From: Microlunatus panaciterrae
GTDB lineage: Bacteria > Actinomycetota > Actinomycetes > Propionibacteriales > Propionibacteriaceae
Length of the DNA stretch: 64,000 bases
NCBI RefSeq assembly: GCF_016907535.1
Contig: NZ_JAFBCF010000001.1
Location: forward strand, 806,001 to 870,000
Direction: 5' to 3'
Below the pieces are notes generated by a model. That model saw nothing but the letters and a program-made list of their open reading frames with translations. It was not told where the DNA came from and made no database searches. How positions within the stretch are numbered: the first letter of the stretch is position 1; the number at the start of each line of letters is the position of its first letter. Of this stretch, positions 30,958 through 34,804 are shown piece by piece. The translations under genes were made by a program, and so were the position numbers.

Positions 30958-33447
<2,490 letters not shown>

Positions 33448-33499
33448 TGCTCTCATCTCCTCGTCGGTCGCACGGCCCGGTCCGGTTGGACTGGGCATG

Positions 33500-33540
33500 A
33501 AAAAGCCCCTCGTCGGTGCCCTGATCGGGGCACGAGGGGC
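33500..33540 (-). terminator. Attenuator terminator of leuS
   Basis: On the minus strand nine-base arms GCCCCTCGT (33540-33532) and ACGAGGGGC (33513-33505) enclose an inner GCCC/GGGC pair and are followed at once by five T residues (33504-33500). It is a textbook intrinsic terminator placed between the leader peptide and the leuS start, so it must be conditionally bypassed for leuS to be expressed. Confidence 0.8.
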
Positions 33541-33541
33541 G

Positions 33542-33583
33542 GCCGCGTGGACCATGTCGGCCCATCGGGCCAGGCCACGCGGC
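33542..33583 (-). promoter_or_regulatory. Leader hairpin 1 (pause/anti-antiterminator) of the leuS attenuator
   Basis: Nine-base arms GCCGCGTGG (33583-33575) and CCACGCGGC (33550-33542) with an inner GGCCC/GGGCC pair start in the stop codon of the leader peptide. A ribosome stalled on the leucine codons would cover the 5' arm. The freed inner segment GATGGGCCGA (33566-33557) can pair imperfectly with the terminator 5' arm region 33535-33523, a plausible antiterminator. Confidence 0.6.
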
Positions 33584-33609
33584 TAACTAAGAAGTGCGAC
33601 ACACTGCAT
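33583..33609 (-). CDS. leuS leader peptide MQCVALLS
   Basis: An eight-residue ORF, MQCVALLS, lies just upstream of the leuS attenuator. Its two adjacent leucines use CTT CTT, a rare leucine codon in this high-G+C DNA, so translation would stall when leucyl-tRNA is scarce. There is no ribosome-binding site: the ATG is seven bases after a TACAAT -10, predicting a leaderless message that begins with the AUG. Leader-peptide attenuators ahead of leuS have been predicted in some Streptomyces; the same logic applies here. Confidence 0.7.
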   Translation of the reverse strand: MQCVALLS

Positions 33610-33615
33610 AGCCGC

Positions 33616-33621
33616 ATTGTA
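33616..33621 (-). promoter_or_regulatory. -10 (TACAAT) of the leuS leader promoter
   Basis: On the minus strand TACAAT is followed by six bases and then the leader ATG, which would be +1. The -35 region is G-rich with no clear consensus. Confidence 0.6.
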
Positions 33622-33663
33622 GCCCACCGCCCGCCACCCGCCGGAACCGTCGGTGCTCGCGGT

Positions 33664-33669
33664 TAGCGT
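33664..33669 (+). promoter_or_regulatory. Leaderless -10 (TAGCGT) of the winged-helix gene
   Basis: TAGCGT is followed by seven bases and then the GTG at 33677; no ribosome-binding sequence is present. The leuS leader promoter is divergent, with the two -10 elements only 42 bp apart. Confidence 0.4.
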
Positions 33670-33676
33670 TGCTTGC

Positions 33677-34804
33677 GTGAGGCTCAGCGAGGACGACCTG
33701 CGCGTCCGCACCCTGGGGCGCCAGTTCCCGCGGATCCGCGGCCGCGGGCCGACGGCGGTGCTCGAGCTGTTCGACCGGGTCGGGCCGGTTCAGTCGCAGG
33801 TGCCGAGGGCTCCCTTCCTGGCTGTGGCGTCGCGGCTGCCGGGGACGACCTACGCCACCATGACGGACCTGTTCGCGAGGCACCGGCTGGTCAAGACCAG
33901 CAACATCCGCGGCACCGTCCACACCAGCACTCGGCGGCAGTTCGGCTGGCTGAACGCGGTGGCCGCCCGAACCAGGGCCAACGCGCTGCGCAGCAACCTC
34001 AGGCTCAGCAGGCTCACCGTGGACGAGGTTGCGGCCCAGATCGAGCGGTTCTGCGCCGACGACTGGCGGCCGCGCGCCGAGATCGTGGCCCACACCCTGT
34101 CCTGGGTGGCCGACCAGGAGGCGACTCCGGACATCGCCGACCTGGACGCGCCCGGGGTGCACAATCTGATCTGGGGCCACAGTGGGCTGATCCGCCGCCC
34201 CCGCGATGCGGCCTGGGAGAAGCGCACCGACATCTACCACCGGACCGCTGCGGTGATCCTGCCGGACCTTCAACCTGTCGACGCCGACCAGGCGGTGACC
34301 GAGCTGGTCCGGCTGCATCTCGGCGCGTACGGCCCGGCCACCCGCCGTGACCTGGCGTTCTTCCTCGGCGAGGGCAGCACCCGCATCGACCGGGCCCTCG
34401 AGCGTCTCGGCGACGAGGTCGTCCGGCTCAGCGGTCCGGGGACGGCGCCCTATCTCGATCTGGCCGACCCCCCGACCGGCGGGCAGGTCGATCCAGGACT
34501 TCGGCTGCTGCCCGAGTTCGACGGGCTGTTGCTGGGCTACCACCAGAGCGGGCGGTACCGGTTCATCGACGAAGCTCACCTGCCCCAGATCTGGGCCAAG
34601 GCGAACGGGCTGTTCTCCCCCGTCGTGCTGCATGAGGGCCGCTTGGTCGCGAGCTGGCGGACGCTGACCAGCGGCAGCCGGACGGACGTCGAGGTGCAGA
34701 TGTTCCCCGGTCTGCGCCGGCTCGGCGAGGACCTGTTCAGCGGGCCGGTCGCCGCCCTCGAGGCGATTCTCGGCCTGCACGTGAACGACGTCCGAGTGGG
34801 CTGA
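33677..34804 (+). CDS. Winged-helix DNA-binding protein (HTH_42/AlkZ-like)
   Basis: A 375-residue protein of the winged-helix family that includes AlkZ/AlkX DNA glycosylases, which unhook interstrand crosslinks. Family features are RVRTLGRQFPRIRG at the start, VQSQVPRAPFLAVASRLPG, the IRGTVHTSTRRQF segment and the C-terminal LLPEFDGLLLGY...R region. Three consecutive winged-helix units are expected. I cannot see a certain match to the AlkZ QxQ catalytic motif, although VQSQV has that spacing. The GTG at 33677 is taken as the start since it abuts a -10 hexamer. Confidence 0.78.
   Translation: MRLSEDDLRVRTLGRQFPRIRGRGPTAVLELFDRVGPVQSQVPRAPFLAVASRLPGTTYATMTDLFARHRLVKTSNIRGTVHTSTRRQFGWLNAVAARTRANALRSNLRLSRLTVDEVAAQIERFCADDWRPRAEIVAHTLSWVADQEATPDIADLDAPGVHNLIWGHSGLIRRPRDAAWEKRTDIYHRTAAVILPDLQPVDADQAVTELVRLHLGAYGPATRRDLAFFLGEGSTRIDRALERLGDEVVRLSGPGTAPYLDLADPPTGGQVDPGLRLLPEFDGLLLGYHQSGRYRFIDEAHLPQIWAKANGLFSPVVLHEGRLVASWRTLTSGSRTDVEVQMFPGLRRLGEDLFSGPVAALEAILGLHVNDVRVG

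Follow-up and report, generated by a model that had tools for sequence, protein, structure and literature searches.

Does the short segment upstream of leuS, the leucyl-tRNA synthetase gene, in Microlunatus panaciterrae act as a leucine attenuator, and if so, how would a ribosome on its leader peptide decide whether transcription reaches the gene? We addressed this question in a 64,000-nt stretch of contig NZ_JAFBCF010000001.1 (positions 806,001 to 870,000; hereafter the window), for which a sequence-only reading had proposed a leaderless leader peptide, a hairpin, a terminator and an antiterminator. On the minus strand, the TACAAT hexamer, the six bases behind it, the ATG, the ORF MQCVALLS and the tandem CTT codons were all as that reading had described them, and folding bore out both a hairpin (H1) beginning in the leader stop codon and a terminator with a U5 tract ahead of leuS (Table 1). 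CTT, which had been called rare, indeed makes up only 10 of the 288 Leu codons in five ORFs of the window. The 113-nt leader RNA folds with -60.2 kcal/mol (z -4.6), a value that none of 200 shuffles equalled, and at this locus H1 starts 8 nt past the C of the last CTT. Furthermore, the combination of TAnnnT, 6-7 nt and an ATG or GTG ORF with LL and no more than 24 codons occurs only once on the two strands of the window, at this locus. Taken by itself, the -10 hexamer points to leaderless transcription of the leuS leader in M. panaciterrae.

Table 1. Coordinates of the leuS leader features within the window.
Feature	Position	Strand	Remarks
-10 hexamer TACAAT	33616..33621	-	6 nt (GCGGCT) upstream of leader ATG
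Leader ORF MQCVALLS*	33583..33609	-	ATG CAG TGT GTC GCA CTT CTT AGT TAG
Control codons CTT CTT of leader ORF	33594-33589	-	
Hairpin H1	33542..33583	-	base pairing begins at the G of the leader TAG stop codon
Terminator hairpin	33505..33540	-	one unpaired base separates H1 and terminator
U5 tract of terminator	33500..33504	-	upstream of leuS
leuS, leucyl-tRNA synthetase	30958..33447	-	GTG 33447 assumed start; ATG 33456 possible too

The product of the downstream gene matches TIGR00396 (leuS_bact) at 963 bits, the cut-off being 548. Its frame is open upstream across the terminator up to an ATG at 33555 (ORF 30958-33555), and automatic annotation could therefore set the leuS start inside the attenuator. 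A divergent plus-strand ORF (33653-34804) begins about 30 nt from the leader -10 and matches none of the NCBIfam models up to E 1e-10. A simple pattern scan of the window listed no promoter and no terminator at the leader locus, because its loop limit and its two-hexamer rule exclude both features. No Rfam model matched in the window at the gathering score, none matched within 33430-33700 up to E 1, and four further loci (L154, L171, L189 and L016) gave tRNA only, with no T-box or other family.

For the conservation analysis, 150 leuS loci were assembled from 80 named contigs, 30 loci of relatives (M. panaciterrae included) and 40 loci chosen by place, of which three (L044, L063 and L073) were left out as too short, leaving 147. 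A strict scan for TAnnnT, 4-9 nt and the start codon of a short ORF with LL found a leader in 102 of the 147 upstream regions; 20 rounds of dinucleotide shuffling yielded 1.15 on average and never more than 5 of 147, and the reverse complement yielded 0. A covariance model, R1, built from 50 chosen leaders (alignment A1, the window sequence included in this training set), added 7 of the remaining 45 regions, which gave a leader in 109 of 147; two weak R1 matches, L051 (E 0.014) and L069 (E 0.033), were left out of the 109. The sequences are related, and these counts are of non-independent events. Of the 85 distinct strict-scan leaders, 66 have the -10 element 6 nt from the start codon, and a further 17 have it 7 nt away. 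The tract GG N0-3 T5 occurs in 56 of the 109 regions with a leader and in none of the 38 without, and its T4 variant in 90 of the 109 versus 4 of the 38, indicating that leader and terminator come and go together. In the leuS consensus structure, 10 of 17 pairs are changed on both sides with pairing kept, and both hairpins covary. The Leu codons and the stem, on whose conservation in relatives the sequence-only reading had staked its proposal, are thus conserved in 109 of 147 leuS regions.

Within the genus, all 18 leuS orthologues examined carry the module (genome G008 has no close leuS match). Among 22 leuS loci from other Propionibacteriaceae genera it is found in nine, including L121, which is doubtful because it has neither a tract by pattern nor an R1 match; seven other strict-scan leaders of the 102 also lack the tract by pattern, and R1 matches all seven. 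The other 13 family loci carry no leader (e.g. L004, L009, L115 and L117; L093 among them was covered over 267 nt only), and the module was therefore lost or never gained there.

A leaderless leader before leuS has already been described. According to the excerpted text of a reannotation, PMC8079986 (2021), LeuL2 of Streptomyces lividans TK24 lies before leuS, encodes the peptide MRAVRLLLSEPR, is leaderless as judged from RNA-seq, and is followed by a hairpin and a U stretch. The window element has the same gene, a Leu leader peptide and the same hairpin and U stretch, its leaderless start being predicted, whereas the leader of LeuL2 (with a TGA stop in the excerpt) is longer than MQCVALLS. 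Among 91 classified R1 matches (see below), the LeuL2 peptide occurs exactly in 15 and with one residue different in 1; R1 thus finds both the window leader, which was in its training set, and 15 LeuL2-peptide leaders, which were outside it. Because 15 of the 91 carry the exact peptide, we consider the window element and LeuL2 to be of the same kind: in both, a short ORF with a Leu run lies directly upstream of leuS, followed by a hairpin and a U stretch. Compared with the classical trp and his attenuators, the window element has the control-codon leader peptide and the terminator, and folding gave no antiterminator. The leaderless leuS leader, which the sequence-only reading had taken as new, is therefore in print for Streptomyces (LeuL2, PMC8079986), and its novelty is confined to the lineage; apart from the antiterminator, the observation itself was right. 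The window locus is one more copy of the switch reported in Streptomyces. What is added here is the presence of the module in much of the class, its occurrence also before cimA and ilvB, and its near-invariant geometry.

Cysteine leaders of mycobacteria are reportedly the subject of a study by Canestrari in 2020. As excerpted from PMC4633059, such leaders resemble the window element in being leaderless short control-codon ORFs upstream of related genes; unlike it, they have cysteine codons, and no intrinsic terminator was seen in the part of PMC1262725 that covers them. Closer in gene context, Seliverstov et al. (2005) predicted, in the portion of PMC1262725 drawn on here, attenuators with antiterminators before leuS of two Streptomyces species, as well as leaders before ilvB in several genera. 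The attenuators before leuS in S. coelicolor and S. avermitilis share leader ORF, terminator and gene with the window; that portion calls them classical with an antiterminator and mentions no leaderless start, whereas no antiterminator is selected in the present set. Before ilvB, the excerpted sources describe IlvL of S. lividans upstream of ilvBHC, which is also leaderless (PMC8079986), and attenuators with proposed antiterminators for ilvB-II of Corynebacterium (PMC10272879) and ilvB1 of Mycobacterium tuberculosis (PMC13236596). All three have, like the window, a short ORF with branched-chain codons, a hairpin and a terminator, at least as excerpted. The M. tuberculosis leader is described there as 166 nt long and not leaderless, in contrast to the leaderless start predicted in the window.

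R1 showed that the module extends well beyond leuS. Irrespective of the downstream gene, R1 matches (E up to 1e-3) were found in at least 194 of 296 genomes and at least 87 of 114 genera of the class; at E up to 1e-4, 24 of 198 genomes drawn from the phylum had a match, 12 of the 24 being outside the class. When 91 matches (31 loci returned by R1 searches and 60 taken from listed places) were classified by tblastn, 57 lay before leuS, 22 before ilvB (acetolactate synthase) and 12 before cimA, with 0 unassigned. M. panaciterrae itself has a second full-length match outside the window (L154 1501-1611, equal to G000:C1:3766542-3766652; E 8e-6). Its leader, ATG CAT CTG ATG CAG CTC ATC ATT TCC TAG, encodes MHLMQLIIS with isoleucine codons, and is followed by H1, a terminator and the citramalate synthase gene cimA, whose product matches TIGR00977 with 558 bits against a cut-off of 450; a branched-chain aminotransferase gene adjoins this copy. 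The -10 of the second copy is GACACT, and in 11 of the 12 cimA copies the first T of the -10 is replaced by C or G, which weakens the case for leaderless transcription before cimA. In the cimA consensus structure (12 sequences), 6 of 16 pairs are changed on both sides. No report of a cimA leader was found among open-licence PMC papers. A third, partial R1 match in the genome (G000:C1:3587525-3587572, E 0.09; L155) had no leader on inspection. The genes leuS, cimA and ilvB are thus preceded by one compact, tightly spaced architecture whose control codons are for leucine, for isoleucine or mixed.

The geometry of this architecture was tabulated for 135 leuS leaders, 5 of 140 (L020, L047, L112, L138 and L244) having been dropped with a misplaced or absent predicted H1; the table also omits 11 of the 57 leuS and 1 of the 22 ilvB R1 matches, which were identical copies or had no recognised start or T run. 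The offset from the first nucleotide of the last Leu codon to the first paired base of H1 is 8 nt in 113 and 7 nt in 19 of the 135, with offsets of 5, 9 and 11 nt in one leader each. It is 7-8 nt in 69 of 71 leaders ending in TAG and in 62 of 63 ending in a later TGA. H1 and terminator are separated by 0 nt in 92 leaders, 1 nt in 33, 2 nt in 9 and 3 nt in 1, and H1 itself spans 19-69 nt. After shuffling of the stretch between codon and terminator, an offset of 7-8 nt arose in 3.6% and a gap of 0-1 nt in 40%, making the offset the stronger signal. Among the 132 distinct leaders, CTT is the last Leu codon in 125, the offset is 7-8 nt in 129 and the gap 0-1 nt in 122. All 12 cimA leaders have an offset of 8 nt and a gap of 0-1 nt. 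The ilvB offsets range over 4-10 nt, with 6 nt in 9 of 21, a spread due in part to ilvB H1 pairing further into the stop codon.

The last control codon is similarly constrained. In the 135 leuS leaders it is CTT in 128, CTC in 7 and CTG in 0, compared to 74% CTG, 17% CTC and 2.7% CTT among the 4505 Leu codons of the leuS genes. Of the 12 cimA leaders, 11 have ATT as their final Ile codon ahead of H1, ATT being 6% of 1856 Ile codons there. Ten atypically long tRNA matches of the 45 in M. panaciterrae were typed, which gave tRNA-Leu anticodons CAG, UAG, GAG and CAA; none of the ten was tRNA-Leu UAA. The GAG-anticodon tRNA reads CUU.

Leader, Leu codons, H1 and terminator are thus recognisable in the sequences as parts that are conserved, spaced and, in the hairpins, covarying. 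With these parts, the leuS element is very probably a leucine-responsive, ribosome-mediated transcription attenuator. RNA would start at or near the AUG, and a ribosome would load on the leaderless leader and read the Leu codons. With ample charged tRNA-Leu, the ribosome would complete the leader and depart, and RNA polymerase would halt at the terminator; with charged tRNA-Leu in short supply, the ribosome would stall with the last CTT in its A site and transcription would continue into leuS. The start site, the leucine response and its direction are predictions of this reading, and established knowledge of leader-peptide attenuation suggests that a halted ribosome would raise leuS transcription. 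Against this reading, 38 of the 147 regions are without the module, including 13 of the 22 from other genera of the family. Moreover, work cited in the excerpt of PMC1262725 found that changes of control codons in the ilvB leader of S. coelicolor had no effect. For that leader at least, presumably a related one, this result argues against codon sensing.

How could a stalled ribosome prevent termination? Our preferred step, which we hold tentatively, is steric blocking of the terminator by the stalled ribosome, with no antiterminator RNA involved. Given the dimensions of the ribosome, an 8-nt offset places the first pair of H1 approximately at the mRNA entrance when the codon is in the A site. 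The foot of H1 would accordingly sit at the entrance of a ribosome stalled on the last Leu codon, with the terminator abutting H1, and since H1 folds back, its length is irrelevant: an H1 of any length would place the ribosome beside the terminator foot and cause steric hindrance. With such a step, the fixed distance, the small gap and the free length of H1 would be explained, and so would the lack of an antiterminator and the special status of the last codon. Against it, a gap of 0-1 nt is common by chance (40%) and the ilvB offsets range from 4 to 10. It is also conceivable, though doubtful, that the leuS, cimA and ilvB elements form a widespread actinobacterial class, in which a stalled ribosome docks on an abutting hairpin and blocks the terminator, the sensed amino acid being swapped via the codons. 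In such a class, the ribosome might stall on the final NNU codon of a leaderless mini-ORF, and antiterminator RNA might never be made; we put this forward with equal reserve. Each of the two spacings, and the codon as well, can be varied by itself, which makes the way in which a stalled ribosome prevents termination directly testable.

Almost as good a fit is offered by a different last step, in which H1 aids termination as a pause hairpin or by stacking on the terminator, and a stalled ribosome opens H1 and so weakens termination. This step, which we think possible but rather doubtful, agrees with the fixed codon-to-H1 distance and the abutting hairpins. A hairpin-dependent pause would lie about 10-11 nt past H1, and in the leuS leaders T is commonest 10 nt (0.55) and G 11 nt (0.61) past H1; however, this signal is moderate and different in ilvB. 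The leuS terminators are moreover strong alone (median -13.5 kcal/mol), and loss of H1 might therefore change little.

The classical last step, in which the stalled ribosome would free a part of H1 to form an antiterminator with the terminator 5' arm, was also the one that the sequence-only reading had chosen. It draws on the antiterminators predicted before leuS of two Streptomyces (PMC1262725, as excerpted) and put forward for the ilvB leaders of Corynebacterium and M. tuberculosis (excerpts of PMC10272879 and PMC13236596). We folded each leader from 14 nt past the first base of its last control codon, taken as the edge of a stalled ribosome, to just before the terminator 3' arm, and compared the pairing of the terminator 5' arm with that in copies whose intervening part was shuffled. 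Pairing was 0.349 in native versus 0.486 in shuffled leuS leaders (native higher in 27 of 135), 0.371 versus 0.483 for ilvB (1 of 21) and 0.396 versus 0.379 for cimA (5 of 12). The 14-nt result was borne out by masks of 8-20 nt applied to 89 leuS leaders that had been selected for an offset of 7-8. In the window leader, truncated and ribosome-masked, 5' arm pairing was below that of shuffles at all five masks (0.38 versus 0.60 at 14 nt). The part of the window H1 left free does pair weakly with the 5' arm: the energy is -17.2 kcal/mol, shuffled copies average -14.5, and 82.5% of 40 shuffles are beaten. Over the leuS, cimA and ilvB sets, the H1 part formed duplexes with either arm of the terminator that were on average no better than shuffled.

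The same test applied to Escherichia coli leaders as positive controls gave the opposite outcome for thr, trp and leu when the ribosome stood in the control-codon run. Pairing in thr was 0.51-0.59 versus 0.31-0.35 (at three stalls above every one of 60 shuffles), in trp 0.62 versus 0.47-0.48 (40 and 46 of 60 exceeded), and at the four CUA codons of leu 0.46 versus 0.33-0.35 (45-49 of 60); with the ribosome on a leuL Leu codon that does not belong to the run, it was 0.07 versus 0.31. At three His codons of his it was 0.57 versus 0.50-0.51 (40-42 of 60) and at the last His codon 0.33 versus 0.48. With such modest power the test is weak for single leaders, and our argument therefore rests on the whole set. 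Masking of the ribosome footprint lowered the terminator below 0.5 in 4 of the 135 leuS leaders (L088, L094, L160 and L201), and single leaders may therefore have an alternative structure; masked folding at full length is uninformative, because the E. coli control terminators also stay at 0.85 or above. An antiterminator from the inner part of H1 thus finds no support in folding as a selected feature, in the window or in the set, and we regard the classical last step as unlikely. The module before leuS, cimA and ilvB shows no sign of the alternative helix of textbook attenuation. A helix between the codon run and the 3' arm of the terminator was also considered and not adopted (leuS -7.74 versus -7.09 shuffled, beating 59%; cimA worse than shuffled).

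A translational switch appears very improbable. Here the Leu codon run, often CUCCUU, would pair with the leuS Shine-Dalgarno site, as in the base stem of the leuA-type LEU element, a pseudoknot in which the excerpt of PMC1262725 has the Leu run paired to that site. CUCCUU is similar to an anti-Shine-Dalgarno sequence; however, a terminator with a U tract lies in between, and arthrobacterial leaders carry CTG CTT. Finally, an unregulated terminator with a short ORF by chance is scarcely credible against 102 leaders in 147 regions versus 1.15 in shuffles, the fixed spacing and codon choice, and 91 of 91 fetched R1 matches preceding leuS, ilvB or cimA.

Past the U tract (33499-33486 in the window), the leuS loci are conserved to about 14 nt from the tract start and then fall to background. 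That it holds a second start codon seems doubtful, as reading frames, compared by eye, disagree among species. In leuS loci the stretch often reads CATGYCCGG or GTGTGTCCGGG, with similar sequences in the cimA and ilvB copies, and it is perhaps the point of RNA release.
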